Source: Candidatus Neomarinimicrobiota bacterium (GTDB lineage: Bacteria > Fidelibacterota > UBA2242 > B5-G15). Taken from it: 64,000 nucleotides of DNA. The position numbers and the translations under genes are program-made. The stretch spans positions 62,001 through 126,000 of the forward strand of contig JACDNV010000004.1 in assembly GCA_017656425.1 (NCBI GenBank), in the 5' to 3' direction. Below the pieces are notes generated by a model, which searched no databases, had not been told where the DNA came from, and saw only the letters and a program-made list of their open reading frames with translations. Of this stretch, positions 22,251 through 57,486 are shown piece by piece (the first letter of the stretch is position 1; every line of letters starts with the position of its first letter).

Positions 22251-22266
22251 AGTTATCTCCTGATAT

Positions 22267-23733: not shown

Positions 23734-23736
23734 CTC

Positions 23737-25083: not shown

Positions 25084-25140
25084 AATACAATACAAAATTA
25101 ATAATAGATAACTATTAACACAATTACAAAAGATTAAGCC

Positions 25141-26681: not shown

Positions 26682-26697
26682 GACATTCAACCCACTA

Positions 26698-30959: not shown

Positions 30960-33900
30960 CTACTTAATTAAAAGAATTTTTTGCACTTCCCTATCAAATG
31001 ATGTTTCAAATACTATAAAATATAATCCTGAAGGCAAACCCTTAGCGTCGATGATTGATTTGTAATCTCCTGGAGCCTTTTTACCTTCATCCATTTTTTC
31101 TACTACCTGACCTTTAACGTTATAAATTTTTATATCTAAATTTGATTCATATGGAATTGTATATTCTACACACGTTCTGGAATTAAATGGGTTTGGATAA
31201 ATTCTATTTAGCTTAAATCTACCGGTTTGGTTTATCTCAACATGGTCAATATCATTCTTTGACAAACCTATATACACTTCCCCAAGAACACCGGGATTTT
31301 TCCACCCTTCCTCATTCTCAGCTAAAGACACAATTTGAGATTCTCTATCTCCTCCGTCATCATCATCATCTATACCAATATCGAATCCAATAACATCGCC
31401 AACTTCTGGTGAAATACCAATTGTTTGCCACGGGATCAAAAGTTCCAATAAATATCCACTATCAACCTCTTTAATACAAAACTCAATGCCATCAACTCTA
31501 CTCAACGAATTTGCACCAATGCTTATAGCGTCATCTTTTATTCTAAATCCCAACTGGTAATCGTTTATACCGTCATAAGATTTACCTTTACTGTTATCAC
31601 CATCTATAAAAACTTCTACAGCGTCATCTTCCCACCAGTCTGACCCTGAGTCGTTTATCAACACAGAATCCTTGACATTAACCAAAATATACAAATTAGA
31701 TTTATCTGCCATTGCTTTCCATTCGGCATAGAAATCGTTTTGTTTATTACCTATTACGACATTGTTAATTGGCATTGCGGGTGTATTTGCCCACATTGGA
31801 TCAATATTACCATCGATTATACAGGGAGTTTTTGTTATCCCAATAATAGGTGGTTTTATATCGCCCATGTCGTCATCCAGTATTGTTACTATACAGCTTC
31901 CTTTACCACCGATTATATAATTTTCACCGCTTACGAGTAGGATACTAATATACTCAGGTCCCTCCACTATTTCATCATTTATGGATTTTATAGTCAAAGT
32001 ATCCACAAATTTGGATGAGTTTAAATTGATAACACTATCTATGTTTTCGATTATAATAAAATCATCATTTACTTCTGCAGAACCTTCTACACTATATTTT
32101 ACAGAGATATCGTTGTCTATTCCAAAGGCATCGATAACTACAATTGCAGAATCACCATCTTCCAGGCAAAATTGATCCGGGGAATAAATATTTACTGCCG
32201 GAATCACATCTATAATACACGTATCCCTTATAAGATTATCCGGTGTATATGCTATTAAATATGATCTGCCGGGCAATTTTCCCATAATTGAAGCAAAGGT
32301 GTTACTCGTATCTACTATTACTGCAATATTAGTATCCGTTAATACCCAATTTATTGAATAGTTTGAAGCATATTGTGGTATTGTATTAAGAGCTACTGTA
32401 TCAATCTTCAACCTCGGCAATTCCATTAATTTTGGATTCAACATGATATCTTCAATTGCTATATTTGTATAATTTATCTTCAAATTAAATCCTTCTTTAA
32501 CATATATAGGTTCATCTGACTCAATATTAGAAATAGTTAATCCATTTATCTCTGCTTCACCTATACCTGTACAAACAACTATAGCTTTACCTTCATGAGT
32601 TTCTATACGCTTTGATTCAATATAAGGATCAAGCCCTGTACCATCAATGACTACATTTTTAAATAATATATTCGAAAACCCAGCGTTACCGCCAATCATA
32701 ATACCATCTCTCTGGGCATCTATTATATTCAAGTCTATAAAATTAATATTTTTAATCTCTTTTAATGTTGCTGCAAGCTCTACCGCTCCTCTCTCGTATC
32801 CCCATAAATCATAACTTGTGCCACACTTAATAATTAAGTTATTTTCAAAGGTTATCTCGTCAGTATATTCAAAATTATATCCTGAAAAATCAGTCGTTAG
32901 TCTAATACCCGATCCGGCAAAATTATCTTTAATAATATTATTCCTTATTATATGACCATTACCCCCAAAAATTGCTATTCCTCCCGCTCGCCAATTATGC
33001 TCAATTGTATTATTTTCAAAAATAATATTTTCAGACATCTTTGCACTTAAATCATCATAGGGCCAACAAGCTAAACCATCATCTCCGTTATTCCTGATAT
33101 TACAATTTCTAACAATGGAATTGCTCGTTCCCTGAGTAAAATTCACTCCATCAGCATAATTATTCCTTATTCTACAATTATAAATAATCAAGTTATCGGT
33201 ATATTTCATAGGATACGAATAATCGCCTATCCAGAAACCACATTCGAAATGCTCTTCCCATATGTCATGAATTATAGAATTGCTGCCAAAAGTCCCCATG
33301 AAACATTTGTAAATATACTGCTGTTCGGGTTTATCATTATAGAATCTACTATTTATCACACTATTCAAGTATATATGTGCAATCTCTACATTAGAACAAT
33401 TATCCCCACCTACAATTCCTCCTCCACTTATGCTATCATTGGTAAAAAATATCTCTGTATACCATATACCCGCTCCAATAATTTTTATATTCGAAATATC
33501 TAAAACTAATTGTTTGCTTAGCAAATATTTACCTTCGGGTATGTATACATCTTTGCCCTGATTTTTTGCTTCATATATACAATCGTTAAACCCCTCCGAA
33601 TCATCATATTCATCATCAGGAACAGCACCAAAGTCAGTTACAGATAATGCACTATCTGGTTTAGGTACTTTTTCGGGAATCTTTTCTATTTCTATAAAAT
33701 CTATGCCATATTCATAATTGTCTCTTCCTTCCTTAGTAAATCTCAATATATCTCCAGGTTTTAAAGGGCTATCAAGTTTGAAATGTACCTCATCAAACCT
33801 CATTCTGGGTCTTTCTGAAGGAGTATTTGTAGGATCTGAACTGGGGAAATATTGCCATGACCAATATGAGGTTAAATTAATATCAAATATTTTTTCTCCA

Positions 33901-34247
33901 TTTACATAAACTCCCAATAAGCCATTTACTCCATTACCTTCTGGTGAATCCGGTAACATAAACCTGATATTGATCCCATCAGCACTATCGTTTATAGTCC
34001 ATTCAACATAGTCACCTGCTAGAGGTAGTCCTATATATGATTGGTTTGACGCTTCTGAGGCTGTGCTATCCTGGATAAACATTTTTGACTCGTGTAAAAT
34101 CGATCCAGCGCCCCAATTCCCGAATTCAGCTTCGTATCTTCTATATGGGAAACTAGCACCTATCTGACTGACACTTTTATTACATAAAATAGTTGCAATC
34201 AGAAAAATAGATACAAAAAGATATTTATAATATTTCATCACTATCAA
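30960..34247 (-). CDS. Secreted GH87-like beta-helix glucanase with CBM, Calx-beta, CBM9-like and sorting domains
   Basis: The 1095 residues show a signal peptide, a CBM35/CBM6-like sandwich (about 36-190, 'RYEAEFGNWGAGSILHES', 'GDYVEWTI'), a right-handed beta-helix (about 200-620, opening 'LSVTDFGAVPDDEYDDSEGF'), a Calx-beta domain (about 695-795), a CBM9-like domain (about 800-1000) and a sorting domain ('IYPNPFNSRTCVEYTI' to the end). Inside the helix, Asp366 ('ADGVNF') and Asp389-Asp390 ('NNGDDGLACW') are spaced 23 and 24 residues apart, as I recall for the three catalytic Asp of GH87 alpha-1,3-glucanases. The CBM-helix layout also matches actinobacterial mycodextranase-like proteins. GH87 acts on alpha-1,3-glucan, a surprise in a locus otherwise aimed at beta-glucan. 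Confidence 0.72.
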   Translation of the reverse strand: MIVMKYYKYLFVSIFLIATILCNKSVSQIGASFPYRRYEAEFGNWGAGSILHESKMFIQDSTASEASNQSYIGLPLAGDYVEWTINDSADGINIRFMLPDSPEGNGVNGLLGVYVNGEKIFDINLTSYWSWQYFPSSDPTNTPSERPRMRFDEVHFKLDSPLKPGDILRFTKEGRDNYEYGIDFIEIEKIPEKVPKPDSALSVTDFGAVPDDEYDDSEGFNDCIYEAKNQGKDVYIPEGKYLLSKQLVLDISNIKIIGAGIWYTEIFFTNDSISGGGIVGGDNCSNVEIAHIYLNSVINSRFYNDKPEQQYIYKCFMGTFGSNSIIHDIWEEHFECGFWIGDYSYPMKYTDNLIIYNCRIRNNYADGVNFTQGTSNSIVRNCNIRNNGDDGLACWPYDDLSAKMSENIIFENNTIEHNWRAGGIAIFGGNGHIIRNNIIKDNFAGSGIRLTTDFSGYNFEYTDEITFENNLIIKCGTSYDLWGYERGAVELAATLKEIKNINFIDLNIIDAQRDGIMIGGNAGFSNILFKNVVIDGTGLDPYIESKRIETHEGKAIVVCTGIGEAEINGLTISNIESDEPIYVKEGFNLKINYTNIAIEDIMLNPKLMELPRLKIDTVALNTIPQYASNYSINWVLTDTNIAVIVDTSNTFASIMGKLPGRSYLIAYTPDNLIRDTCIIDVIPAVNIYSPDQFCLEDGDSAIVVIDAFGIDNDISVKYSVEGSAEVNDDFIIIENIDSVINLNSSKFVDTLTIKSINDEIVEGPEYISILLVSGENYIIGGKGSCIVTILDDDMGDIKPPIIGITKTPCIIDGNIDPMWANTPAMPINNVVIGNKQNDFYAEWKAMADKSNLYILVNVKDSVLINDSGSDWWEDDAVEVFIDGDNSKGKSYDGINDYQLGFRIKDDAISIGANSLSRVDGIEFCIKEVDSGYLLELLIPWQTIGISPEVGDVIGFDIGIDDDDDGGDRESQIVSLAENEEGWKNPGVLGEVYIGLSKNDIDHVEINQTGRFKLNRIYPNPFNSRTCVEYTIPYESNLDIKIYNVKGQVVEKMDEGKKAPGDYKSIIDAKGLPSGLYFIVFETSFDREVQKILLIK

Positions 34248-39760: not shown

Positions 39761-41773
39761 TCATCTTAATAACAACATCTTTTTTATATCCTGTACCCCG
39801 TTACAGATAATCTTATAAAAATAAACACCCGAGGGAACAGCCCTCCCAAAATTGTCTCTGCCATTCCAACGCAAAAAACTTAACCCACAATCCATTTCCC
39901 CATCATATAAATGGTTGATAATTTTCCCATCAAGTGAATAAATGACTACTTTTACTTTCTTTTTATCATTCAACACAATTGGTATATTAGTTACACTGTT
40001 AAATGGGTTGGGGAAATTCCTGTTCAAGAAAATCCCATCTTCAATATTTTGATAGATGTTTGAATGGATAAGTTCAAATTTTAAATATTCAAGGTTAAAA
40101 CCACCTTTAACAAATAAAACTTTTAGCTCATATTGGCCTTCATCCAAATGAATACTATCAATAGTGATATCTCTCCATGCTTTCCACCCTCCAGTATTTT
40201 CAACCATTATATTAGAAGCAATCGGATTATCATCTAAATAAATATTCATTATGCCTGTATTGTTTGGGGATGCAACCCTTAATTTAAGACTGTATATACC
40301 AGATGTCACTATATCAATTGTGTATTTCAGCCATTCATTATCTTCAATCCATCCAACATTGTATTTTATACCATTTTCATCTTCAGATACCTCGATATCG
40401 ACACCATCATTTCTAAATTCTCCACCACTATTCCATGCTACCCAATTTGGATAAGTTATCATTTGATAGTTTTTGTCACCATAGGCTATCCCATTCTGCC
40501 CCAGATCATAAAACACTGCAGGTATCAATCCAGGAACCCTTAAGTCAGCAAAAGGCTTATTTGTTTTTTTAAAATCCTTATCCAATAAAGCCGATACCAC
40601 ATCTTTTCGAAACTCACAGCTATCCATATCAAATTTTTTCGCTAAGGTAAAAAGTGCATTTTTAGCAAATTCTAAGGAAGGTTTTGAAGCATTCCCATTC
40701 CAGTAATCTATAATTCTTTGATAATCATCGGTCAATTTAACAGAGTAAATAACAGATGTAGCATCGATTTTCTTATAAGTCCACCAGTTCCAGCTAATAC
40801 TGTTTTTCTCTGCAATACTGATTACCTCAGAGAACCAGTGATTGGAATTTTCACCGAACTCGCCAAGCCATAACGGTCTAAGATATTTTCTTCGCATTTC
40901 TATATATTGGTTAATGGTATTTGCGGCAGGATCACTCCAGTATTTATGGAACGCATAAGCCATATTTACATCAAATGGAACTTCAAGATTAGAAAAATCT
41001 GTAGCATACCAATTACCTTCTATAAATAATAGATGATTATCTCCGTTGCTTCTTATTTCATCTTTTATCTTTATGTATAAATTTCTCAATTCCGTTGTTG
41101 AAATACCCTGTGGTAAGACGGGTTCATTTAATAAGTCATATCCCGCTATCACTTTTTCGTTTTTATATCTTTCTGAAATAAAATCCCAAAAATCAATTGT
41201 TTTTTTCTTATTCTCTTCATATAACCATAATTCAGCTCTGCCTGGACTATCACTTATATTTCCATCATTTTGACCACCTGGAGCACAATGCAAATCCAGA
41301 ATTAAATACAAACCATATTTTTTGCACCAAGTCAATAATGAATCAAGAATATGAATTCCTTCACTTTCGTAGCTAAATGATAAATTAGCATCCATAAAAA
41401 GATCATAATGAAGGGGTATTCTTATGGAATTAAATCCAAGCTCGGATATTCTCTTCACATCTTTTTCCTGTATATAATATTTTCTATATAATATGAAGAA
41501 CTCTCTTGTATTTTCAACTCCTATCAACTCCTCTACCATTTCTCTAATGGAAGTAGGGGAACCATAACCTGGCATACGAAGCATGTATCCTTCTGGTACT
41601 AACCAACCACCCAATCCAATACCTCTAAACAGTATTTCATTCCCTGATGTATCCAAAAATACAAATCCAGCTGCTTTTACATAATCAGATGAAAACAAAT
41701 TTACTATCGTCGTATTAATAACTAAGACAAGTATTAATAATTTTAACCTAGAACTACCTCTTAACATTATCAT
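39761..41773 (-). CDS. Secreted GH5 glucanase with CBM6-like and sorting domains
   Basis: The 670 residues show a signal peptide (about 10-28), then a GH5 barrel (about 30-400) with 'FLDTSGNEILFRGIGLGGWLVPEGYM', acid/base Glu217 in 'GYDLLNEPVLP' and nucleophile Glu305 in 'PLWLGEFGEN'. A CBM6-like sandwich (about 420-570) has 'VPGLIPAVFYDLGQNGIAYGD' and 'VGWIEDNEWLKYTIDIVTSGIYSLKLRVAS', the typical CBM6 core. The sorting domain starts at 'LNRNFPNPFNSVTNIPIVL'. It is a paralogue of the GH5 at 26698 but carries different binding and sorting modules, so this one is surface-exported. It lies 15 bases after the permuted GH16 gene in the main operon. Confidence 0.93.
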   Translation of the reverse strand: MIMLRGSSRLKLLILVLVINTTIVNLFSSDYVKAAGFVFLDTSGNEILFRGIGLGGWLVPEGYMLRMPGYGSPTSIREMVEELIGVENTREFFILYRKYYIQEKDVKRISELGFNSIRIPLHYDLFMDANLSFSYESEGIHILDSLLTWCKKYGLYLILDLHCAPGGQNDGNISDSPGRAELWLYEENKKKTIDFWDFISERYKNEKVIAGYDLLNEPVLPQGISTTELRNLYIKIKDEIRSNGDNHLLFIEGNWYATDFSNLEVPFDVNMAYAFHKYWSDPAANTINQYIEMRRKYLRPLWLGEFGENSNHWFSEVISIAEKNSISWNWWTYKKIDATSVIYSVKLTDDYQRIIDYWNGNASKPSLEFAKNALFTLAKKFDMDSCEFRKDVVSALLDKDFKKTNKPFADLRVPGLIPAVFYDLGQNGIAYGDKNYQMITYPNWVAWNSGGEFRNDGVDIEVSEDENGIKYNVGWIEDNEWLKYTIDIVTSGIYSLKLRVASPNNTGIMNIYLDDNPIASNIMVENTGGWKAWRDITIDSIHLDEGQYELKVLFVKGGFNLEYLKFELIHSNIYQNIEDGIFLNRNFPNPFNSVTNIPIVLNDKKKVKVVIYSLDGKIINHLYDGEMDCGLSFLRWNGRDNFGRAVPSGVYFYKIICNGVQDIKKMLLLR

Positions 41774-41788
41774 ACCATTTAATATTTA

Positions 41789-42847
41789 CTACTTTAAATA
41801 AGTTACCTTTTTCTTAACTATACCATTATTTGACTTAACCCTTATCATATATACCCCGGAATTTAATCTCTTACCAAATCTGTCTTTGCCATCGAAACGA
41901 AGAATATACTCACCGGAGCACAAATAGTTATTATACATTTTATTAACTATCCTTCCATATAGATCAAATATCGAAATCTCAAAATTACCTCCAGATTTCA
42001 CTCCAACTGCTATATTTAAACTTTCATTAAATGGATTGGGATATACATTTAATAATTCAAATTCAATTTCTTTTATATTGCTTTCTTTTATCCTGTTATA
42101 TCCAACATCTTCGGATGTCGTCAGGCATAATATCATATAACCATCTTTAAATACTACGTTCTCAGGTATGAAATCACAATTATTACCATAAAATGTATGT
42201 GTAGCTTTCTGCCATCTATCACTATCGAAATAATCAAAGTCATCTTTCCATTTGAATTTAAAATTTTTCCCCATTCCATAGTCACCATTTTCGGGATCAT
42301 ACTCATAATATTTAACCCAATCATATACGGCGTACTTAGGCAAAATCGAATCATCAAATTGACCAACCCAATTCTTATCTGTAGACTGCCATAAATTCAT
42401 CATTATCTTCTGAGGTTTATTTAATTCCGCTATATGTTGACCTACTTGTATGTGCTTAGATATATCATCTATATACCATGCAACATAATTAGGCATCCAT
42501 TCGATTGCATATATGTGAAAATCTTCGCTCGGATCAAAGTTCACTGTAACCAATTCAACATGGTTTATTCTTCCAGGTGTTATTGTATTGAACTGGACTT
42601 TATTATTATATTTCCCCAGAATTTCAATATCAATTTCATTCCAATCCATTTCATCTTTTACATTATCGTGATATGTGAAAAATGACGAGACTATGCCTGA
42701 CCCAGATGCAGATTTAAATCGGACTTCAAATCTACCATATAGAAAGGACTCTTTTGTTCTTAACTCTCCACCTTTGTAAGGCTTAGGGTATACTAAAGAT
42801 ATACACACAAGACACAGTGTAAACTTAATTTGCCATTTTCTTCCCAT
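41789..42847 (-). CDS. Circularly permuted GH16 lichenase-type beta-glucanase with sorting domain
   Basis: The 352 residues start with a signal peptide. The mature protein opens in mid-fold at 'PYKGGELRTKESFLYGRFEVRFK' and carries catalytic Glu71-Ile-Asp73-Ile-Glu75 ('WNEIDIEILG'). It continues to 'AVYDWVKYYEYDPENG' (about 174-188), where ordinary lichenases end, and then to 'FKWKDDFDYFDSDRWQKA' and 'GNNCDFIPENVVFKDGYMIL' (about 197-240), which ordinary lichenases have at their N-terminus. Its order is therefore permuted, as known for the Fibrobacter succinogenes 1,3-1,4-beta-glucanase. The short EIDIE motif without the extra Met fits lichenases. A sorting domain follows ('YPNPFNESLNIAVG'). 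It overlaps the upstream gene by 23 bases; AGGTTGGATT precedes the ATG. Confidence 0.93.
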   Translation of the reverse strand: MGRKWQIKFTLCLVCISLVYPKPYKGGELRTKESFLYGRFEVRFKSASGSGIVSSFFTYHDNVKDEMDWNEIDIEILGKYNNKVQFNTITPGRINHVELVTVNFDPSEDFHIYAIEWMPNYVAWYIDDISKHIQVGQHIAELNKPQKIMMNLWQSTDKNWVGQFDDSILPKYAVYDWVKYYEYDPENGDYGMGKNFKFKWKDDFDYFDSDRWQKATHTFYGNNCDFIPENVVFKDGYMILCLTTSEDVGYNRIKESNIKEIEFELLNVYPNPFNESLNIAVGVKSGGNFEISIFDLYGRIVNKMYNNYLCSGEYILRFDGKDRFGKRLNSGVYMIRVKSNNGIVKKKVTYLK

Positions 42848-44330
42848 AATCCAACCTATTATAAGTTGTTAATACTGGAAAGTTAGGAACTACCACAGGA
42901 TATGGAAGTCCTGTTTGTAATACTGACATATCAACTCTAGTAAGCTTTATATTTTCCAGTATATAGGTATTTATCTCTATTTCATTTTCATACTTTTTAA
43001 TCAAACTTAAAAAATAGGGATTAAGAACAGTATCAATTATTGAAATGTAATCCTGTTTAAAATCATCTAACAAATTCTTCTTATTTAAAATTCTATTTCT
43101 TTGATCTATAGCTAGCAGATTGTCTTTCCACATTTGAACGTTGTGATTCACACTTTCTATCCTGTCATATCCTCGTCTATATGCATCTTGAGTTATGTAA
43201 TAATCTCTGACTAGATCTACAATTGCATATTTTAGCTGTTCTAAATATTCTGAGTTTTTAAATCTTCTTTTTCTAAAAACTAAGGGATGCTTTTCAAGTA
43301 GCTCTTTAAATTCCTTCACAGTCCATGCCCTGTTATCGATATTAAATAATGGTTCATCTATAATGTCGTCAAACAGACCTTGTATACTGTCCGGTGCCGC
43401 CTTAACTTCCAAATCCCACAGTGCTCTATTTAGCTCACTTTTTTTATCTATATTTAGATATAAATCGGACACTCTCTGGGCTATTGTAAGAAATATGTCC
43501 CTATTAAATTCAATTCTTTTCCCTTGCATTATTCTTTTAACTATCTGGCTATAATGTTTATCTGCTTTATATAACTTAAGGAACCTTTCAACTTCCTGCA
43601 TATGAGCCGCTCTTGATCTTTCATCAATAGGAATAGTAGTAGTCCAGCCCATAACTCTAAATATTATGAAGCTTCTGTAGGAAATTCTTATAGGTCCAAT
43701 AATTTCACCCTTGTTATATTTTCTTGAATAAATTTTAAAAATTACATCTGGATCAGTTACCATGTTCAATTCTAATTCCATATATGGGATGGAATCACCT
43801 CTTAGATGATCATAAAATACTCTTTCAAAAATTTCATTATTTATAGTGCCATACCCAATCAATTCATTGAAAACAGCAGTATCCGTAAATGTATAATAGT
43901 TCAACTTATATTTTCTTAAACTATTTTCGTAAAAATCGTTTAATTCTTCTTTAGTGAGTTTAATTCTACTATAGGATAAAAGATAATAGTGCCATTGCCT
44001 CATTGCCTGCTCTTTCCTGCCTGTCAAATAATTATTAAAATTTGAGTTGGTTAAGAGTGGTGATTTACTCTTCTCTGCCTCAATGGCATACAACTTTTCG
44101 GCAATCAAAGTATTCAATATTATTTTTTTATGTATATAATAGTCTCCCCTACAATACGCAGGGCGAGGAGTATACTCTGCACGTCTTATGAATTCATTCT
44201 TAGTAATGACCCTGTTACCAATCCTGGCTATTATTGAATCCTGACTTATTTCAGGAAATTTTTTACTACAACAAGTTGTAATGACACCAATTACAAATAA
44301 AGTAGAGACAACAATTTTTCTTATAATCAT
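42825..44330 (-). CDS. Periplasmic SurA/PpiC-like chaperone, probable lipoprotein
   Basis: The 501 residues start with a signal ending in two Cys (ITTCCSKK), so lipidation is likely. The opening 'DSIIARIGNRVITKNEFIRRAEYT' is the SurA_N/foldase pattern. The rest is helical with a possible degenerate PPIase-like segment (about 150-240: 'SIPYMELELN', 'YNKGEIIGPIRISYRSFIIFRVMGWTT', the latter matching the C-terminal strand of parvulin domains). SurA-like proteins escort outer-membrane beta-barrels through the periplasm. Encoding one inside an operon of TonB receptors, a PorV-like barrel and type-IX-type cargo suggests a dedicated folding helper. No catalytic residues can be confirmed. Confidence 0.7.
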   Translation of the reverse strand: MIIRKIVVSTLFVIGVITTCCSKKFPEISQDSIIARIGNRVITKNEFIRRAEYTPRPAYCRGDYYIHKKIILNTLIAEKLYAIEAEKSKSPLLTNSNFNNYLTGRKEQAMRQWHYYLLSYSRIKLTKEELNDFYENSLRKYKLNYYTFTDTAVFNELIGYGTINNEIFERVFYDHLRGDSIPYMELELNMVTDPDVIFKIYSRKYNKGEIIGPIRISYRSFIIFRVMGWTTTIPIDERSRAAHMQEVERFLKLYKADKHYSQIVKRIMQGKRIEFNRDIFLTIAQRVSDLYLNIDKKSELNRALWDLEVKAAPDSIQGLFDDIIDEPLFNIDNRAWTVKEFKELLEKHPLVFRKRRFKNSEYLEQLKYAIVDLVRDYYITQDAYRRGYDRIESVNHNVQMWKDNLLAIDQRNRILNKKNLLDDFKQDYISIIDTVLNPYFLSLIKKYENEIEINTYILENIKLTRVDMSVLQTGLPYPVVVPNFPVLTTYNRLDYGKKMAN

Positions 44331-44343
44331 ATAGTATCACAGG

Positions 44344-45396
44344 TTAAAATGAAAATTTAACAGTATATACATTATATTTACCAAGAATGTTCATATCCCT
44401 ATATGCATAATCAACCAAAAGAAAAGTATTTCTGGGCATTCTTATCCTCAACCCAAAACCAGAAGTTAATCCATATACTGAATACGGCATAAATATCCCT
44501 TTATATCCTGCTCTTAAAAATATACTACCAATTCTAAATATTTTGAGTTCATATTGAGTTCCTATATTAATGTATTCAGCATTATTATTGGGATGAATAG
44601 CATCTGCTGCAATTATTAAATTATGGTAACTTGACACTATGGGTCTATATGAAATACCAATCCTGGAAATTAATGGTAATTCCCAGCTCTCAGTATCAAA
44701 TTTACCCTGCGCATCCCCGTAATTACCCGCTTCATCAGGCAAAATATCAATTGTATTCAGAAGGTCAATTCCATCATACTTCATTTTAGTTCCATAATTT
44801 GAAATACTCATTCCTATATTTAGTCCATCTTCCCTTTCCCCTGATAAACTAAAAAATCCTGTATTTACAATGGCACCCAGATCCAGAGCGACAGAATTGC
44901 CTATACAATGCCATATTTGTGATGAAATTAATTTAGCAGTAGCCCCGAAAGAAAACCAAGTAGCGAGTTTACGAGCATAAGACAAACCTATTGCATATTC
45001 ATTTGCAGTATAAACCTCTCCTGTTCCATCTTCATATTTCACGGTGGTTACGGGTATATCGCCATAATTTATCTGAGTTGCTGCAAGTGCAAAGGTACCC
45101 AATAAAGGCAAATTAACAGCGCCCGCCACAAAGATGATATCGATATCAACTAACCATGGTTGATAACAAAAGATTGCCTCTCTTCCAGTGAGAAATGCAA
45201 GCCCCGCAGGATTCCAATAAATTGAGGATACATCATTTCCTACACTAACATATGCGTCACCCATCCCCACTGCAGAGCTTGCCATACCTATCTCAAGAAA
45301 ATTAGCCGCAGTAGTACCTACACGGTGTGGTTTTTGTTGAGGCAACAACGAACAAATGAATATGAAAATTATTAAAATTGCTCTCTTTATTCTCAT
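44344..45396 (-). CDS. PorV/PorQ-like outer-membrane beta-barrel
   Basis: The 350 residues have a signal peptide, then 'GTTAANFLEIGMASSAVGMGDAYVSVGNDVSSIYWNPAGLAFL', the hallmark of the PorV/PorQ family, then an alternating beta-barrel ('GAVNLPLLGTFALAATQINYGD', 'YAIGLSYARKLATWFSFGATAKLI') that ends in 'YTVKFSF' with a C-terminal Phe. PorV shuttles type IX cargo from the translocon to the attachment complex. Several neighbours here carry sorting domains, so a local accessory of that pathway is plausible. AGGGTG lies before the ATG. It follows the 1162-residue protein gene by ten bases. Confidence 0.85.
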   Translation of the reverse strand: MRIKRAILIIFIFICSLLPQQKPHRVGTTAANFLEIGMASSAVGMGDAYVSVGNDVSSIYWNPAGLAFLTGREAIFCYQPWLVDIDIIFVAGAVNLPLLGTFALAATQINYGDIPVTTVKYEDGTGEVYTANEYAIGLSYARKLATWFSFGATAKLISSQIWHCIGNSVALDLGAIVNTGFFSLSGEREDGLNIGMSISNYGTKMKYDGIDLLNTIDILPDEAGNYGDAQGKFDTESWELPLISRIGISYRPIVSSYHNLIIAADAIHPNNNAEYINIGTQYELKIFRIGSIFLRAGYKGIFMPYSVYGLTSGFGLRIRMPRNTFLLVDYAYRDMNILGKYNVYTVKFSF

Positions 45397-45406
45397 AATT
45401 ACACCC

Positions 45407-48400
45407 TTATTTTATTACTGCGAACTTACCCATAACTTCATCACCTGTTTCCTCTGCTTTTATATAATATATATACATACCAGCAGCTATTTCTAATCCC
45501 TCTCTTGTTAACATATCCCAGACATATACGCCCTTTTCAATTGGATTATTAACGTGTATCTCATCAACCAAAACACCGCTTACAGTAAATATCTTTATTG
45601 TACATTTTGCAGGGATATTTTTAAACATCAATCTTCTGGGTTGATTAAGGTAAGGATTTGCAACAGCAGGTTCAATTTCATTCGTACAAATATATGGATT
45701 AGGTACAATTTTCACGTCTTTTAGATTGTTTGCAAGCTCTTCTCTATCGATTGTGTCAGTAGCAGTAATTGAGAAGTAAAGAGAATCGGTTTTCCAGAAT
45801 GGTCTTTTAAATGTAACTCTATATACACCATTATTAGGTGGTACAGTACTATTTAGAAAATCGATAACAAATATTGTTCCTGCCCAGTCTCCGTTCTTAT
45901 TTAGTGCACCAACAAGGATTTTATCTTCATTTATTTCAAACAGACCATCTTCATTCACATCTTGAATTAATATATCCATCCTCTCATAGTTTCCTGTGGA
46001 ATCCTTAAAAAGAATATTATAAACAGTAAAAGGAACAGTCTGATGAGTCAGTATTTGAGAAGATCTAATCCTTGTATCTGATTCATCTCTGATTCCCGTT
46101 TTATCATCAGTAACACCGGTATATTGATCTCCAAATACTATATTATACTCCCATGGAAAATACTTAGATTCCCTTGCTGAGGGCATAATAAACAATGTAT
46201 CATAACCTTCAATCCAGCCACTATTGGCAAAATCAAATGTTGGTGTTTCGATATTTAAAACAATATTTAGTCTTATACCATCGAAAACATCAGTATAAAA
46301 TCCACCTGTCTTTATAGTATAGTAATTCAGCGTATCATTACGATTAATATTATCTCCGGAATATTTACTGCTATTTTCATAATAGACCAGTGATGTATCT
46401 TCCGTAAGGTTAAAAACTTTATATCCACTCGTAGTATAAATTAATCCATGATCATAGTCATTTATAATCTCCGGTAATCCACTAATATTATGAACAGTAT
46501 CAATATCAAAAGTAATACAATATTCATGACCGGACTTTAATGCTCCAAGAGCAAGCAATTCCGGTATTACTTCGCCTGATCCGATAAATGATATTCCTTT
46601 CCTGATGTTTGTCTCAGGTGGTACGTAGCCAGCTGATGGAGGAGTTGGAACCACTACCGCTATGTTTTTACCGTATCCAATAATGTTTTCATTTTCATCC
46701 ATTTCAATTACGAGATTATTTTCTGATGGAGCAATGCCTGGTCCTATGTCAGGCGCACCGTAGTCATAAGCTACAAGACCGTAATAATATGTCCTCCCGT
46801 TTTGTACATTATTATCAATAAAATAATGAGTTATTCCGGTCTCACTCCCAAGAAAATACCCCATACCATTTACCAAGCCAAAATCTGTAAAACCCTGTTT
46901 GCCATCCTTTAGATCACACTGGTATATCGGTTTATAAAACATAGGGGTACCGTACCCATCAGTAATTACCTGTGCATCATGAAAATAAGGATCAGTAGCC
47001 CTATATAACTTATATCCTTCAAAATCATTAACATTACCAACAAATGGATCACGAGTTCTGGTATCTGCGACATCATCCCAAGTAAGGATAACTTTCCTGT
47101 CACCGGGTGTTGCCGTCAGCGTTGGCATCTCAGGTGGACTGGCAAATCTATAATCTCTTTCATATATTACCTGAACTATTCTTTTTAATTCAAAAAGAGC
47201 AGGTGCTGTGTGTTGTTCTGACTCTAGTCCTTCCAGTGGATCATAAGCGTGTAACTCTGACATAGAAATACGTTCTGTCCTTCCTTTATAAAGAGGGAAA
47301 GGTCCAGAAGCAAACACTTCCACCAAATTAGATATAACTCCATAATATTCCATTAGTGTATCCGCTGCTAGTATTTCCCACATTACATCATCATTCTTAA
47401 ACCAAATTGTTGTGTTTGATTGTGCATGGCTTTGAATGGGAAACATTCTAAAACTCGTCAAACCAACCATATCAGATTCAGAAACATCAGTAGCTGCAAA
47501 ATTTGGCTCACATCCAACACCCTCTTTATAATCTGGCATATGGTTACATTCTCCCTCATCAGGACCTGTATAGTTTAGCTCTCCTGGACCTACACCATCT
47601 AATCCCACATCATCACCAGCAAATTCCGTAATTTGATAAACGCCATCACCATTTAAATCTTCGCCATCCTGCCAATCTTGATCTTCATCGGCATCCCAGT
47701 GTTCATGTAAATCTTCCATTTTTAATCTATAAAATGCTAAGAACTTGTTTATATCAGCTATATCTTCAGTTGGACCAACAAGCCTTGTTGCTGGATTATC
47801 TCTTTGTTCATCTATAAGTCCATCATCGTCATTATCTATACCATCATAGGGTAATCCAGGACTCTCAAGGTAAGCAAAGCCCATAATACCAGTCCTTCCA
47901 CCAGCATATCCAGTTTCATCATTATCCCATGAATAAGCCATATCCAGAAGTTTATTAAAATATGCAATCTCGTCATCAGCTTCACCACCTATACCGTTAT
48001 CAACCCAATACCCAAAGCATACTTGAGTTAAATGATACTCAGAAATATTTGCAATGTTGTATTCCCAGAAAATGCAATCCCGTGCTTGTGGATTATTCCA
48101 TTGATATCCTCTCGTCTCTATCCGAATACCGATACCTCCCCATGGTTCACCTTTTTGTATTGTTACACTGGGTCTTTTGTCCCCGATTTTCCTTCCTGGT
48201 CTCGGATAGTATTTTACATAATCTTCAGGTCCTAGATACTCCTGATCCTGTGCATCATTAACAACAAAATATGTCTCCAGATCGGCATACATTACTCCTC
48301 TTCCAAATCTACCATTCCATTCTCCTGGCCATTTTAATTGATCATAAGGTGCTGGCCAACCCTCTGGAGGCCACGAATTAGGCTTATTACTCATTGCAGG

Positions 48401-48895
48401 ATAATCCTGGGTCTCATTAAAATACCCGAATACAGGATAGAATCCCCAAGGTGTACCATCTACAGGGTTATAATCCATTTCCTCTCTATAACTGGTCTGC
48501 AGAAAATATAATGTATGGTAATTATTTGGAAACATTATAATTTTCGTAATGTCTGTTTCAGGAATAGTATCTGGATTTGTAGGAGTCGGATTGGAGGATT
48601 TTTTTATAAAAACTTTTGCACCAACTAATAAACCAACTCCATCGAGCATTCTCTGTGCATCAGGTCCATAAGGCCAACCAGAAAACTCAGGACCAACCTC
48701 ACCACTGTACCAATTTGATAACTCAGTAGTATTCTTAAAATATAGATAAACCCTATTACCATTCATAACTCCTGCACGTACTGCCGCTATATCGCCTGCT
48801 GGATCATCGGGACCCTCATATTTTTTACCCTGGCCAAATACTAACGTTATAAAAATCAGTAATATTAAAAATAGAATTGAAATTAATCTCTTCAT
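45407..48895 (-). CDS. Large secreted protein with FN3-like region and degenerate sorting domain
   Basis: The 1162 residues begin with a signal peptide ('LISILFLILLIFITLVFGQ'). Several Asp-rich calcium-loop-like stretches are present ('DGIDNDDDGLIDEQRD', 'DADEDQDWQDGEDLNGDGVY'), then a fibronectin-III-like segment near 'PEMPTLTATPGDRKVILTWDDV'. The C-terminus ('VKIVPNPYICTNEIEPAV' to 'GKFAVIK') looks like a divergent sorting domain. Proteins of this layout recur next to TonB receptors and PorV-like genes in candidate FCB phyla, but I know of no defined function. Because it lies 18 bases after the TonB receptor gene, it may be a surface partner that takes the place of SusD. Confidence 0.68.
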   Translation of the reverse strand: MKRLISILFLILLIFITLVFGQGKKYEGPDDPAGDIAAVRAGVMNGNRVYLYFKNTTELSNWYSGEVGPEFSGWPYGPDAQRMLDGVGLLVGAKVFIKKSSNPTPTNPDTIPETDITKIIMFPNNYHTLYFLQTSYREEMDYNPVDGTPWGFYPVFGYFNETQDYPAMSNKPNSWPPEGWPAPYDQLKWPGEWNGRFGRGVMYADLETYFVVNDAQDQEYLGPEDYVKYYPRPGRKIGDKRPSVTIQKGEPWGGIGIRIETRGYQWNNPQARDCIFWEYNIANISEYHLTQVCFGYWVDNGIGGEADDEIAYFNKLLDMAYSWDNDETGYAGGRTGIMGFAYLESPGLPYDGIDNDDDGLIDEQRDNPATRLVGPTEDIADINKFLAFYRLKMEDLHEHWDADEDQDWQDGEDLNGDGVYQITEFAGDDVGLDGVGPGELNYTGPDEGECNHMPDYKEGVGCEPNFAATDVSESDMVGLTSFRMFPIQSHAQSNTTIWFKNDDVMWEILAADTLMEYYGVISNLVEVFASGPFPLYKGRTERISMSELHAYDPLEGLESEQHTAPALFELKRIVQVIYERDYRFASPPEMPTLTATPGDRKVILTWDDVADTRTRDPFVGNVNDFEGYKLYRATDPYFHDAQVITDGYGTPMFYKPIYQCDLKDGKQGFTDFGLVNGMGYFLGSETGITHYFIDNNVQNGRTYYYGLVAYDYGAPDIGPGIAPSENNLVIEMDENENIIGYGKNIAVVVPTPPSAGYVPPETNIRKGISFIGSGEVIPELLALGALKSGHEYCITFDIDTVHNISGLPEIINDYDHGLIYTTSGYKVFNLTEDTSLVYYENSSKYSGDNINRNDTLNYYTIKTGGFYTDVFDGIRLNIVLNIETPTFDFANSGWIEGYDTLFIMPSARESKYFPWEYNIVFGDQYTGVTDDKTGIRDESDTRIRSSQILTHQTVPFTVYNILFKDSTGNYERMDILIQDVNEDGLFEINEDKILVGALNKNGDWAGTIFVIDFLNSTVPPNNGVYRVTFKRPFWKTDSLYFSITATDTIDREELANNLKDVKIVPNPYICTNEIEPAVANPYLNQPRRLMFKNIPAKCTIKIFTVSGVLVDEIHVNNPIEKGVYVWDMLTREGLEIAAGMYIYYIKAEETGDEVMGKFAVIK

Positions 48896-48913
48896 TTCTA
48901 CTCCTCAATTCAC

Positions 48914-51625
48914 TTAAAATGATAATACCAAACCAATTTTAATTGTTCTGGGGACAGAATATGCTGATGGATTTTTATATGTTTCATCATATGTGCTAAA
49001 ATTACTTCTGTATGATTCTAAATCAGATGGTCTAACTATTGCGGTATAAGCCCTTCCTGTCTGTCCGTTTACCCATACTTCATTAAGTCTATCAAACAAA
49101 TTGTATATAGACCATTCCATTCTCAATTCGAATCTTTTAATTGAAATTATATCGTAGTACCCGGTAGCATCAACACTGTATGATTGGCTAATGTAATCAT
49201 TGTTAGGATATAAATTCAGTCTTGAAATTCTATTTTCTGGTATTGGACTCCACGTATAGGGTGTACCAGAATTATAGTATCCTGTAAATGTTATACCCCA
49301 ACGGTCCGTATTGTAACCAACAGTAAGGTTAAATGTATGGCGTTGATCCCAGCTCATTGGAATATATCTGATTATAGGGTCCATATTATTCCCTTCACGA
49401 TTAAAATTCTGCTCCGGGGTATCAGCATTACCTCGAGTGTATTGTAACGTATAATTTAAAAACAATGATATCGGTCCTCTTACAAAATCAAGTTTTACCT
49501 CAAGACCTCGTGCATTACCATAATCTTTATTTGTATATATACCATAGCGAATCTGGTTATAGGTTGTCATAACCTTTGTGCTTAATAAATTATAAATATC
49601 CCTATAAAAAAGGGTTACTTCTAATCCCAGGTCCCTAATTAGTTCCTGCCACAAGCCAACCTCATATGTAACCGTTTTTTGAGCCTTGAGCTGAGGGTTA
49701 CCCATGGTGGCTTCGAAATCCCTTGGACCTACTAAGTGGGAATGATTTTGATAAAAAGCATATAAAGGAGGTGTTTGGAAAAAGTGTCCATAACTGAAAT
49801 GAAGTATGGCAGTTGAACCTAATTGATATGCCAGACCAAATCTTGGGCTTATTTGAACCTTCGGATCTGCTTTTACATATTTAGACATCATTGAATCTGG
49901 CAATGACAATTGGTTTGCAGGATTTCTGAGATCCGTAGGATATGTCGTGTTCGGATCGAAATAATCGTATCTTAAACCTATATTGATAACCATCTCATTA
50001 AATTCCATTTTATCTTGAATATAAAGTGAATATTCATATGGTTTTACAACATAAACATCTGACCATCTTGTAGAATCGGGATAAATTACCGGCTGGTACA
50101 CTAAATTTGCAGAGTCTGTCCCAGCATATTTGTTTCTGATTACATGGTATTGGTTATCCAGTATATGCTGAGCATATTCAAATCCTGTTTTAAAACTATG
50201 ATTTGTATTAGCCTGCCATGTCAGGTCAAATTTCGTTTTATAATCTGTCTGATATCTCTTAGTATGGGGTTTCCCCAGATATTCTCCAAACCTATTTCCT
50301 GCACCTTCCTGTCCGCCAGTATAGAAATAGCAACCATTATTATTTAAGAATCTATCATTAATATATCGGGAGTCATAAGGATTCTCATAATGGTAATTGC
50401 CATAATAATCATAAATTTTTGCCATCTTCAATTCATAAAATAGATTTGTTGAAATCATATGGTTTATCTGTATGGACAATAAATTATCTTTACCATAAGA
50501 TTTAAGCTGACCGTCAGGATTATATTTAAACGTATGATTGTAGCTTTTCCAGCTCGACAAACTTGTATTATACAACAGCGATAATTTAAATTTGGAAAAT
50601 GGTTTGAAGGTAAATTTAGTCATAAGTGACTGGTTTTTATTCCAATTCATAGGCACAAATTTATTATCCCCTGTATTTTCAGAATACCATTCAGTAGAAT
50701 CCATAGAAGAAAAATCGCTATAATCAGTTATTCTGAATCTTCTGATTCCATTGAGATGCCCTTTATTATCCTGTTTTCTATAATTTATAAAAAATGTTAA
50801 AAAGTCTTTTATGATTGGACCACTTAATTGGAATTTATAATCTTTATTTCTATCGATTTCTGCCTCATCGATCCCGATAAATATTTCATCATGTGTGGTA
50901 AAGTAATTTGAAAAGCTACCTGATATAAAGCCATGAAAATCATTTCCGCCTTCCCTCGTTACCATATTGACGACACCACTCATCGCCTGCCCGTACTCTG
51001 CATTAAAAGTGCCTGTAATCACTTCAAGATCTTGAACGGCTTCTGGCTCCAGCATAACTGCAGAATAATTACCAGTAAAAAGTTCATCCACACGCAAACC
51101 ATCAATCATATAGGAAACCTCGTAAGATCTGCCACCCCTGAAATGGCCTGCAACAACTCCTGCCTGCATATTGACAATTGTAGCTACATTTTCAACAGGC
51201 ATCTTTTCAATTTGATCTTGTGAAACGTTTTTAATAGTACTGGTCTGGTCTTTTTTTATCGCTATTCTATCAGCTTCAACAACAACTGTTTCCCCCTCTA
51301 TCGACGTTTGATCAAGATCAACATCTATATATGTAGTTCTATTAACCGATACTTTAACTCCCGTGATCTTCTCTGTTTTGTATCCTATTACCTGAACTAC
51401 CAATGTATATTCACCAGGAGGTACATTTATTAAATAGTAGTTCCCATTTTCATCGCTTGCCGTCCCGATGGTACTACCCTCAAGCCAGATATTTGCTCCA
51501 GGTATCTTATCCCCGGTTTTCGCATCAGTTATAGTACCTGCAATCTTACCGGTAGTCTGAGCAAAAATTGAATTGGATATGAAAAACGTTAATATTATTA
51601 ATAACCAAATTTTTGAATTCTTCAT
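48914..51625 (-). CDS. TonB-dependent receptor, second copy in the locus
   Basis: The 903 residues have a signal peptide, a carboxypeptidase-regulatory-like domain ('GKIAGTITDAKTGDKIPGANIWLEG', 'GNYYLINVPPGEYTLVVQVIGY'), a plug ('PVENVATIVNMQAGVVAGHFRGGR', 'EVSYMIDGLRVDELFTGNYS', 'VQDLEVITGTFNAEYGQAMSGVVNMVTREGG') and a barrel ending in 'KIGLVLSF'. The plug resembles receptors of Caldithrix- or Marinimicrobia-type bacteria. It is the second gene of the operon starting at 54319 and is preceded by a strong hairpin (51663). No SusD gene follows; the 1162-residue protein does. Confidence 0.93.
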   Translation of the reverse strand: MKNSKIWLLIILTFFISNSIFAQTTGKIAGTITDAKTGDKIPGANIWLEGSTIGTASDENGNYYLINVPPGEYTLVVQVIGYKTEKITGVKVSVNRTTYIDVDLDQTSIEGETVVVEADRIAIKKDQTSTIKNVSQDQIEKMPVENVATIVNMQAGVVAGHFRGGRSYEVSYMIDGLRVDELFTGNYSAVMLEPEAVQDLEVITGTFNAEYGQAMSGVVNMVTREGGNDFHGFISGSFSNYFTTHDEIFIGIDEAEIDRNKDYKFQLSGPIIKDFLTFFINYRKQDNKGHLNGIRRFRITDYSDFSSMDSTEWYSENTGDNKFVPMNWNKNQSLMTKFTFKPFSKFKLSLLYNTSLSSWKSYNHTFKYNPDGQLKSYGKDNLLSIQINHMISTNLFYELKMAKIYDYYGNYHYENPYDSRYINDRFLNNNGCYFYTGGQEGAGNRFGEYLGKPHTKRYQTDYKTKFDLTWQANTNHSFKTGFEYAQHILDNQYHVIRNKYAGTDSANLVYQPVIYPDSTRWSDVYVVKPYEYSLYIQDKMEFNEMVINIGLRYDYFDPNTTYPTDLRNPANQLSLPDSMMSKYVKADPKVQISPRFGLAYQLGSTAILHFSYGHFFQTPPLYAFYQNHSHLVGPRDFEATMGNPQLKAQKTVTYEVGLWQELIRDLGLEVTLFYRDIYNLLSTKVMTTYNQIRYGIYTNKDYGNARGLEVKLDFVRGPISLFLNYTLQYTRGNADTPEQNFNREGNNMDPIIRYIPMSWDQRHTFNLTVGYNTDRWGITFTGYYNSGTPYTWSPIPENRISRLNLYPNNDYISQSYSVDATGYYDIISIKRFELRMEWSIYNLFDRLNEVWVNGQTGRAYTAIVRPSDLESYRSNFSTYDETYKNPSAYSVPRTIKIGLVLSF

Positions 51626-54546: not shown

Positions 54547-56001
54547 CTATTTTATACCTAACTCTTTACATAATCGATGGAAATTGGGAGGAGCTAGTCC
54601 AAGTTTCCTTGCTGCCTCTGCGTCAGATAAACTTCTATCTCTAACATATCTTATAAACTCTGATTTTACCCTGATATCAAACTCTTTTAAAGTTGGTAAT
54701 TCGTTATTAATTAAAGAAAAGTTAATCAAACTTTTCCCTACATCAGCCTTAATATCCAAAAATGCCATCGCAATTTCCCTGCTAACTCTAGCTACTCCAT
54801 TCAATACAAGCCTTTGAATGAAATTTTTTAACTGCCTTACATTCCCTGGCCAATCATACTGTAATAAAAACTTTATAGCTTCTTTATCAAATGTCGGCTT
54901 TTCTATATTATACTCCCGCGAGAAAATGTCACAAAAATTTTCGATTAATACCTCAATATCTTCTCTTCTTTCTCTCAATGGTTTTATATTAATATTGAGA
55001 ACATTCAACCTATAAAATAAATCCTCTCTTATTTTTTTCTCTTCTAAAATCCTTGTAATATCTTTATTTGTGGCAGATATAATTCGGACATCAACTCTAT
55101 GTTTTCTTTCACTTCCGATCTTTTGTAGTTCACCCGTTTCTATTATCCTCAAAAGCTTTGCCTGAGCTTGAATTGACATTTCACCAATCTCATCAAGAAA
55201 AATTGTTCCTCCATTAGCCTTTTCAAACAAACCTACCTTTAACTCACTTGCTCCAGTAAAAGCCCCCTTTGTATAGCCAAATAATTCACTTTCAATTAAT
55301 TCATTCGGAATCGCAGCGCAATTAACTGTAATATAATTTTCAAATCTCCTATGGCTTTTATAGTGAAGATGTAAAGCAACGAGTTCTTTCCCTACACCAG
55401 ATTCACCGGTAATTAACACATTCGCGTCAGCTTTAGAATATTTATCTATCAGCATTTTGATATCTTCTATTTCTTTCGATATACCTACTATCTTATTTTG
55501 CATCAATATATTCTCAATATTTTTCTCTACTTTTACATCCGATCTATGTTTACTTAGTTCTAATTGCTTTCGCTCGTAGGCATTAATAACGGCCAGGATA
55601 AAATCTGTAGGTTGGTAAATATAATTGTCCATATCTACAGGGTACTTCGTCCCATACCAGCATGCACCACTTCTCATCAATTCATTTGCAAAATATACAT
55701 CATTAACATTAATAGTCATCTTTGTTATCACAATTATCTGTATAAAAGGATCGATCTGCTTTATCTTTTTTATCAATTCCTCACCGTGCAGACTTCCTGA
55801 AAGCTGATAATCCATTATTACTACATCATCTTTTAATTTGTTCTTATTCAAATATTCTAAAAAGTCTTCTCCATCTCCAAATACACCATCAATTACATAT
55901 TCGCGTGACATTGTCTTCAGTGTATTTTCAATTCGCTTAACATCAAATTCTTCATCCTCAAGAATAACTATCCTAATTTTACTATCAATTCTATGCCCCA
56001 T
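54547..56001 (-). CDS. NtrC-type sigma-54 response regulator, module 2
   Basis: The 484 residues form an intact REC-AAA+-Fis protein. The receiver has 'IVILEDEEFDVKRIENTL' with phosphoacceptor Asp64 ('VVIMDYQLSGS'). Walker A is GESGVGKE (199-206), the sigma-54 loop is GAFTGA (246-251) and Walker B is GGTIFLDE (264-271). The DNA-binding helix is 'DAEAARKLGLAPPNFHRLCKELG', almost identical to copy 1 ('GLAPSNFYRMCKELG'), so both should bind the same site. The receiver is followed by a longer linker than usual (about 140-170). I choose the ATG at 56001 because AGGAGGTG is six bases upstream; a GTG three codons earlier lies inside that site. It overlaps the kinase gene by 11 bases. Confidence 0.95.
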   Translation of the reverse strand: MGHRIDSKIRIVILEDEEFDVKRIENTLKTMSREYVIDGVFGDGEDFLEYLNKNKLKDDVVIMDYQLSGSLHGEELIKKIKQIDPFIQIIVITKMTINVNDVYFANELMRSGACWYGTKYPVDMDNYIYQPTDFILAVINAYERKQLELSKHRSDVKVEKNIENILMQNKIVGISKEIEDIKMLIDKYSKADANVLITGESGVGKELVALHLHYKSHRRFENYITVNCAAIPNELIESELFGYTKGAFTGASELKVGLFEKANGGTIFLDEIGEMSIQAQAKLLRIIETGELQKIGSERKHRVDVRIISATNKDITRILEEKKIREDLFYRLNVLNINIKPLRERREDIEVLIENFCDIFSREYNIEKPTFDKEAIKFLLQYDWPGNVRQLKNFIQRLVLNGVARVSREIAMAFLDIKADVGKSLINFSLINNELPTLKEFDIRVKSEFIRYVRDRSLSDAEAARKLGLAPPNFHRLCKELGIK

Positions 56002-57478
56002 AATAAGCACCTCCTCCTGTAATAGGTATTATAATTCTATATCTTGCCCACCTATCTTTATTTTCAGCAACAATATCCCATCCACACTTCTTGCAGTTTT
56101 CATAAGCTATATAACACCCATAGCCCGAATGCCCAACATTCTTTTTCGTAGTGACATTTTCTTTAAAAATAAGCTGGATACCATCTTCATCTTTTAACAC
56201 GAGCTCAGATGGAAAATTTGCTCCATTATCCTCAATAATAATCTCACCAATATTTTTCTCTTTATAAATGGTGGTCTTAATCCTGATAACTACATTCTTA
56301 CCTCCATTATGATCTATTTTATTCTGAATTAATGGCTCAAGAATTTCCCAGATAACAAACTCATTAATATTTAATATTGGAAATTCTTTATCCAGCTCCA
56401 TTTTAAAATCATACCGGCTCGACATTTTATGTGTTCTTAAAAAAACATTTTTTACTAAAAATTTTATTACTTCATTAACATCAGTATGGAACATAGAACC
56501 TCTAATAATATGTATTGGTGGTTCAAATGTTTTCATATTATATATCACCCTCGATATAAACTTTGTATATTTTAAAACTCTATTTTTTACCTCCTCAATA
56601 TTATTCTTATTAATTATATTCAAATCTTCATTTATAAATCCCATTATCTTTTCTGCCTTGTGGTGGGCATGATATATTCTTTTAGTAAAAAGCTGTTCCT
56701 TCCTGTGTTCTATTTCTGCTTTTAGCTTATTTGCTCTTTCCTCATAAAGTTGCGAAAGCGCTATATCCCTTTCTTTAAAAGTATAACTTGAAACAAAAAA
56801 CATACCCAGAAGACCAAAAAGTATTATGGCAGTAAATATAGCCCCAGTCTCATTGTAAGATGAGGAGATTAATTTCTCAATATTTCTTAAATCAGGAACA
56901 ACTCTCATATATACCATACCATAAAATTCACCCCATGGCACCAGTGGTACGCCCGCTTTAACTCCATTTTTTTCATCAAGATAGCTAATTATAACCTCAT
57001 TATTCTTTAGCTCATCTCTAATTTCATAATACATTCTTAATGCAGGAAGTATAACTTCCTCCTCGCTTTGTACAGTACTATCACTTTTGAAAAAGAAACG
57101 ATATAAACTGCGTCCATCATTTAAAAAATATAATCGATTGTTTCTTTCTAGAACCAAACACATTTCTTTTACATTTCTTTGGAGAAGTTGCTGGCTGAGA
57201 ATTATATTAAACTTTTGTATTATTCTCCTTTCCTCTTCCTCCGTATTTGGCATATTACTATACGCCTGTTCTAGTAAAAGCTCTAAAGATGTTGTTGTAA
57301 GGTCTGCCACCCTTTCAACAAAATCTTTTCGATAAATCTCCATTGTTTTTAACAATAAAGATCTAGTTGAAGTATTATGTATCACAGTTAATATAACTTG
57401 AAAACCAACTATAGCCAAAAATAATATAACAAAGTGTCTACCCTCAAAATGACGCCATTTAAAATTTTTTACCTTCAT
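55991..57478 (-). CDS. Membrane histidine kinase of module 2, atypical H-box
   Basis: From the ATG at 57478 (GAGGATAACT before it) the protein has 495 residues: transmembrane helix 1, an extracytoplasmic domain of about 175 residues, helix 2 ('AIFTAIILFGLLGMFFVSSYTF'), a coiled coil, then 'TKRIYHAHHKAEKIMGFINEDL', and an HATPase with 'LIQNKIDHN', 'IIEDNGANFP' and 'HSGYGCYIAYENCKKCGW'. The histidine helix is the same as in the copy at 22267 and unlike common H-boxes. The start is eight bases after the binding-protein stop and the end overlaps the activator gene, so all three are one translational unit. The extracytoplasmic domain probably contacts the anchored binding protein. Confidence 0.9.
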   Translation of the reverse strand: MKVKNFKWRHFEGRHFVILFLAIVGFQVILTVIHNTSTRSLLLKTMEIYRKDFVERVADLTTTSLELLLEQAYSNMPNTEEEERRIIQKFNIILSQQLLQRNVKEMCLVLERNNRLYFLNDGRSLYRFFFKSDSTVQSEEEVILPALRMYYEIRDELKNNEVIISYLDEKNGVKAGVPLVPWGEFYGMVYMRVVPDLRNIEKLISSSYNETGAIFTAIILFGLLGMFFVSSYTFKERDIALSQLYEERANKLKAEIEHRKEQLFTKRIYHAHHKAEKIMGFINEDLNIINKNNIEEVKNRVLKYTKFISRVIYNMKTFEPPIHIIRGSMFHTDVNEVIKFLVKNVFLRTHKMSSRYDFKMELDKEFPILNINEFVIWEILEPLIQNKIDHNGGKNVVIRIKTTIYKEKNIGEIIIEDNGANFPSELVLKDEDGIQLIFKENVTTKKNVGHSGYGCYIAYENCKKCGWDIVAENKDRWARYRIIIPITGGGAYYGA

Positions 57479-57486
57479 AGTTATCC

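Follow-up and report, generated by a model that had tools for sequence, protein, structure and literature searches.

The gene at 41789 to 42847 on the minus strand of the window (the whole 64,000-nucleotide stretch of Neomarinimicrobiota DNA analyzed here) very probably encodes a surface-exposed or secreted lichenase of GH16_21 type that is permuted as in Fibrobacter, is exported by the Type 9 Secretion System (T9SS), belongs to a beta-glucan locus and goes back to one shared permutation. The rotated lichenase is no rumen oddity, and it is widespread in several related phyla. The Fibrobacter case thereby becomes part of what is apparently one evolutionary change, open to study in about 90 sequences, and the permuted relatives are a source of enzymes with natural C-terminal fusions. 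The parts of the gene are as follows.

41789 to 42847, minus strand: whole gene, with signal peptide, circularly permuted GH16 lichenase and T9SS type A sorting domain (352 aa).
42788 to 42847, minus strand: N-terminal signal peptide, about aa 1-20, with limits set by eye from the sequence and a helix at 3-17 in the AlphaFold (AF2) model.
42299 to 42784, minus strand: catalytic core, aa 22-183, aligned with about residues 60-215 of classical lichenases.
42623 to 42637, minus strand: catalytic EIDIE, with Glu71/Asp73/Glu75 aligned with F. succinogenes E56/D58/E60.
42263 to 42298, minus strand: short linker, aa 184-195, from the old C-terminus to the old N-terminus, placed by alignment.
42095 to 42262, minus strand: relocated N-terminal strands, aa 196-251, aligned with about residues 10-55 of classical lichenases.
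41792 to 42046, minus strand: T9SS type A sorting domain, aa 268-352, matched by TIGR04183 and PF18962.

The start codon is an ATG at 42847. The permuted GH16 domain spans aa 22-251 including the linker, and its chain opens right before 'GELRT'. Along the protein, WNEIDIE (aa 69-75) is followed by AVYDWVKYYEYD (aa 173-184), by the stretch from FKFKWKDDFDYFDSDRWQKATHTF onward (aa 196-243) and by the T9SS tail (aa 268-348). The preliminary description had placed EIDIE near the N-terminus and the N-terminal strands behind AVYDWVKYYEYD and a short linker, and this is the order found. In homologs, 12-18 linker residues separate the two profile matches. The Pfam model PF00722 (GH16) matches aa 21-159 only, with 111.5 bits against a curated cut-off of 22. 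At 42825 to 42847 the gene's 5' end and the 3' end of the ORF upstream share 23 bp, an overlap that suggests translational coupling.

A phmmer search against the PDB gave the Fibrobacter succinogenes 1,3-1,4-beta-glucanase 3axd as the best match, collinear over aa 19-251 (E 9.2e-52), and the engineered permutant 1cpm was matched collinearly over aa 28-245. Classical lichenases align with the unrotated protein over about aa 19-182 only. When aa 195-251 were put before aa 22-185 and the search was repeated, each classical lichenase became one full-length match with a higher score (3wvj rose from 134.6 to 151.2 bits, 3i4i from 139.3 to 154.6 and 3o5s from 136.1 to 149.5), and the Fibrobacter matches split into two pieces. 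Since the rotated protein aligns in order with classical lichenases and at higher scores, the C-terminal segment corresponds to their missing N-terminal strands. Searched on its own, this segment aligns with the Fibrobacter enzyme at residues 178-237 (E 4e-11) and weakly with classical lichenases at their N-terminal residues 12-70. The AF2 model, made from 30 sequences, has a mean pLDDT of 87, with values above 90 across nearly the whole catalytic domain. In sequence-order alignment the predicted structure matches the Fibrobacter crystal structures with a target-normalised TM of 0.90-0.94 over about 235 columns, and the classical Bacillus enzymes with a TM of about 0.65 over about 155 columns. 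Alignment, rotation, structure and homologs all agree that the domain is naturally circularly permuted, with the order of the Fibrobacter enzyme, as had been claimed beforehand, and the alignment with Bacillus and Fibrobacter lichenases proposed at the time is collinear with Fibrobacter unrotated and with the classical enzymes once rotated. These results support the lichenase domain as a natural circular permutant with the same break as the F. succinogenes enzyme.

The permuted form is present in 98 further locus proteins, about 90 of them distinct, and the locus proteins, which overlap between collections, hold 91 different domain sequences. The hosts are Neomarinimicrobiota, Ignavibacteria, KSB1, Calditrichota and MAGs labelled Bacteroidetes/Chlorobiota. 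Scanning GTDB species genomes yielded 80 loci, among them those of the isolate Stygiobacter electus and of a single-contig chromosome of 4.06 Mb. Permuted order is found in 99 of the 99 locus proteins that have both segments (the window's own counted) and likewise in Fibrobacter; the homolog set describes spread and not frequency, because the collections overlap and the ranking by similarity to a permuted query biases it towards permuted forms. With a classical Clostridium enzyme as query, 71 of 245 genomes of the window's phylum gave matches, 70 of them at lichenase-like strength. Permuted relatives are present in many genomes of this phylum, and among the strong matches in the 245 genomes one gene only, G002:C61 (L150), was found to have the classical order. 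Apparent classical-order matches were those of the LicB search that start well before residue 44, and this gene is the only classical one among those checked. Genes from G006, G109, G067 and G197:C12 (L011) had also appeared classical, and direct checking showed them to be permuted genes with a chance upstream extension. In L150 (26-1870) the classical-order lichenase-like GH16 domain lies at the C-terminus of a 615 aa protein, and the same Neomarinimicrobiota genome has a permuted one. The earlier placing of the window's enzyme 'outside the known Fibrobacter case' was right and understated, as the permuted order is common in several Fibrobacterota-related phyla. The open papers found link natural lichenase permutation only to Fibrobacter or generally to 'some bacterial beta-glucanases', which is weak evidence that other cases are unreported, and the words 'circular', 'permut' and 'Fibrobacter' are all absent from the text of the GH16 subfamily review.

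Subfamily GH16_21 is marked by an aromatic platform at -1 that is Phe and not Trp (Phe92 in Bacillus), by the EXDXE motif, by Trp192 at +1, Trp103 and Tyr94, and by Tyr24 in the cleft; its domain has about 210 residues with short loops and is strict on mixed-linkage beta-glucan (PMC6827312). The window's protein is 40% identical to the 1mve sequence across 231 aligned residues. Here E56, D58, E60 and F40 of 1mve align with E71, D73, E75 and F57, and Y42, W54, W141 and W148 align with Y59, W69, W153 and W160. The EXDXE motif is present as E71-I-D73-I-E75, with Glu/Asp/Glu invariant in alignments A1 and A2. The -1 platform aromatic is Phe (F57, opposite Fibrobacter F40 in the alignment and invariant in A2), the equivalents of Trp192 (+1), Trp103 and Tyr94 are conserved as W160, W69 and Y59, and aa 22-251 form a short domain with no long inserted loops relative to 3axd. 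The Tyr24-equivalent stretch aligns with a one-residue ambiguity. The position of Fibrobacter W203 lies there and is occupied by His217, and His is found in all 30 aligned relatives (A2). Because of this substitution, subsite affinity may differ from that of the Fibrobacter enzyme. The best solved relatives in the phmmer search are all 1,3-1,4-beta-glucanases, at least 60 bits above the xyloglucan and 1,3-glucan enzymes. The NCBIfam equivalog model NF047856 (beta-glucanase BglS) gives 187.2 bits in two stretches, below its cut-off of 300 bits, as expected because the model has the classical order, and this shortfall leaves the beta-glucanase name unconfirmed. Automatic family models of classical order under-score permuted enzymes. 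From its sequence, the gene product is predicted to be an endo-1,3-1,4-beta-glucanase (lichenase, GH16_21 type).

The origin of the permutation was examined in a carefully built 69-row tree whose outgroup was formed by xyloglucan-active GH16 enzymes. The laminarinase-like GH16 of the window had been tried as root, and the outgroup branch of about 10 changes per site made it uninformative. All permuted rows, Fibrobacter included, lie on one side of a branch with support 92/86 when all columns are used. With core columns, the relocated strands being left out, the split of permuted from classical rows has support 99/97 and is present in 200 of 200 bootstrap trees. The GH16 tree placement called for in the preliminary description thereby groups Fibrobacter with the permuted rows. 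Because one branch separates permuted from classical rows in both column sets, one permutation event shared by Fibrobacter and the related phyla is most likely. Within the permuted rows, the full tree puts Fibrobacter inside the window's clade with 99/99. A firm nesting is not claimed, since the AU test (p 0.40) does not reject a tree in which Fibrobacter branches outside the remaining permuted rows, and the core-only tree gives no starred set for the nesting. The permutation may have arisen by ancestral gene duplication followed by trimming at both ends; we offer this route as a conjecture because no intermediate with both copies of the N-terminal strands is present among 100 proteins.

Circular permutation is usually supposed to arise through tandem duplication, which makes a leftover, truncated tandem copy of GH16 plausible, and the preliminary description had allowed that the C-terminal segment might be a second, partial domain. 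Against this reading, the core and the C-terminal segment cover complementary parts of classical lichenases without overlap, the rotated domain is one full-length match, the AF2 model follows the Fibrobacter enzyme's single jelly roll from one end to the other, and a second copy of either segment is found in 0 of 100 proteins. As both segments are complementary and non-overlapping, the permutation stands; the second-domain reading was dropped on this coverage and the rotation result, and its probability is very small. It is vanishingly unlikely that faulty assembly or annotation of one metagenome-derived genome produced the apparent order. Most genomes involved are MAGs, but the same order occurs in about 90 distinct sequences, in the isolate draft genome of Stygiobacter electus (L075) and in the single-contig 4.06 Mb chromosome CP070707.1 (L063), and the frame is open and uniform.

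Once the domain is taken as a true permutant, its history and its substrate can still be read in other ways. The same convenient surface loop could have been opened independently in Fibrobacter and in the window's lineage. Convergence is structurally possible because this site tolerates engineered permutation (1cpm, 1cpn), and the Fibrobacter branch is long. However, the permuted rows with Fibrobacter stay together both in the core-only tree and with all columns, and identities between the Fibrobacter row and permuted relatives reach 44%, which makes two separate events improbable. A single shared event remains the preferred account. As to substrate, an enzyme of the fold described could act on another beta-glucan (laminarin, a cellulose-like glucan or xyloglucan) and be no strict lichenase. 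The gene adjoins GH5 and laminarinase-like GH16 genes and carries His217 in place of the Fibrobacter aromatic, which would fit such an enzyme. We consider it unlikely given the retained GH16_21 marks (F57, Tyr59, Trp69, Trp160, EXDXE and short loops) and the lead of the 1,3-1,4-beta-glucanases among solved relatives, and we keep the lichenase prediction.

The tail of the protein (aa 268-348) scores 41.7 bits with TIGR04183 (cut-off 23) and 40.1 bits with PF18962 (cut-off 27). Both are over cut-off, which confirms the joining of the lichenase to a type-IX sorting domain that had been read from the sequence. Profile searches of the genome found the PorU sortase (741 bits, cut-off 420) and SprA (SprA_N 117 bits, in a frame of 2098 codons). 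About 45 other matches are to the C-terminal region of PorU and are mostly sorting tails. With a T9SS type A tail in a host that encodes PorU and SprA, the lichenase is predicted to be T9SS cargo. The further claim of a secretion route different from that in Fibrobacter is unsafe, because envelope hydrolases of F. succinogenes S85, among them FSU_2986, a GH16 protein that may or may not be the permuted enzyme, have also been proposed as T9SS cargo from the same C-terminal tail family (PMC6851124).

The relatives differ in what is attached to the permuted domain. Short forms (about 350-370 aa) consist of the permuted domain and a T9SS tail, and long forms (about 600 aa) have, in those scanned, a malectin-like domain inserted before the tail. 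By eye, the permuted lichenases of five Neomarinimicrobiota loci (L151, L152, L153, L154 and L156) have an additional domain at the N-terminus, and at the C-terminus a dockerin-like repeat replaces the T9SS tail. In L033 and L039 (the same genes as L015 and L017) the permuted domain is fused to a GH5-CBM6 enzyme homologous to the gene next to the lichenase in the window. The genes around the lichenase are as follows.

25827 to 26705, minus strand: second GH16, of classical order, laminarinase-like and not a lichenase by profile and sequence matches.
39761 to 41773, minus strand: adjacent gene for GH5, CBM6 and a T9SS-type tail (26.9 bits, TIGR04183 cut-off 23; under the Pfam cut-off).
42825 to 44330, minus strand: 501 aa protein with no assigned family, with a homolog in 22 of 82 related loci.
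44344 to 45396, minus strand: PorV/PorQ-family outer-membrane protein, with a homolog in 62 of 82 related loci.
45407 to 48895, minus strand: secreted 1162 aa protein that fits no named family; its place upstream of the permuted lichenase is conserved.
48914 to 51625, minus strand: probable TonB-dependent receptor, assigned by eye from the translation, with conserved synteny.
58981 to 60774, plus strand: probable GH3 beta-glucosidase, assigned by eye from the translation, with homologs near the permuted lichenase in many loci.

Among the 63 related loci with enough upstream sequence, 55, from several phyla, have homologs of the 1162 aa and PorV-family proteins on the same strand and upstream of the lichenase. 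GH5 is found in 34 of 82 related loci and a laminarinase-like GH16 in 35 of 82. From these neighbors (TonB receptor, PorV-family protein, GH5, GH3 and laminarinase-like GH16) and the GH5 fusions, we infer that the permuted lichenase belongs to a beta-glucan utilization locus, and the fusions in L033 and L039 suggest that the lichenase and the adjacent GH5 enzyme act together. The block at 44344 to 51625, with its TonB-type receptor, 1162 aa protein and PorV-family protein, may serve glycan uptake as a module without SusD. Two more copies of the 1162 aa/PorV pair are present in the genome (C2:30029-34580 and C1:171487-175464), along with 13 PorV-family genes over cut-off and a single SusD match, located elsewhere. 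At 30960 to 34247 the window encodes a 1095 aa protein with alpha-1,3-glucanase-like domains (CatAgl_D1/D2), a CBM9 and a T9SS tail. Similar cassettes at 20798 to 25095 and 54547 to 58815 flank the glucan genes, each with an NtrC-type regulator, a histidine kinase and a membrane-anchored protein of sugar-binding type. The NtrC-type regulator of the cassette at 20798 to 25095 is split by an apparent frameshift between 21177 and 21283.

In the proposed mechanism, Sec would carry the lichenase across the inner membrane and the T9SS would carry it across the outer membrane, where PorU would cut off the sorting tail. Outside the cell the lichenase would be the first enzyme to cut, at beta-1,4 bonds beside the beta-1,3 kinks of mixed-linkage glucan, by a retaining mechanism with Glu71 as putative nucleophile and Glu75 as acid/base. 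The oligosaccharides would then be taken in via the TonB receptor and finished by the GH5 and GH3 enzymes. A wider reading is possible and rather doubtful. The permuted form would be the standard, perhaps ancestral, lichenase of the Marinimicrobia-Ignavibacteria-KSB1-Calditrichota-Fibrobacterota group, with one origin, and would have been kept because its ends suit C-terminal fusions (T9SS tail, malectin-like domain, GH5) in a conserved SusD-free locus with a TonB receptor, a large secreted protein and PorV-family proteins.

The Fibrobacter lichenase is a stock example of natural circular permutation. The title of Tsai et al. (2003) calls the Fibrobacter enzyme (1mve, 1zm1 and 3axd) a 'natural circularly permuted jellyroll protein', as cited in PMC2395249 and PMC4606783. 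The window's enzyme shares with it the permuted order, the break point, the short linker, the Glu/Asp/Glu triad and most cleft aromatics. It differs in the T9SS type A domain after the catalytic domain, in His217 for W203 and Met149 for R137, and in its phylum and locus. The classical GH16_21 lichenases (Bacillus 1gbg, 1mac and 3o5s, and Clostridium thermocellum 3wvj) have the same fold and catalytic machinery and are collinear once the window's domain is rotated, whereas in their chains the N-terminal strands come first. The engineered permutants of the Bacillus lichenase (1cpm and 1cpn) have their chain opened at residue 59 of the parent enzyme, which is nearly the identical opening point, and give a full-length collinear match, but they are man-made and have no sorting domain. 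The T9SS type A cargo glycosidases of Bacteroidota share the signal peptide and the TIGR04183/PF18962 tail, with PorU and SprA in the genome, while the cargo domain here is a permuted GH16 and the host is a member of the Neomarinimicrobiota.
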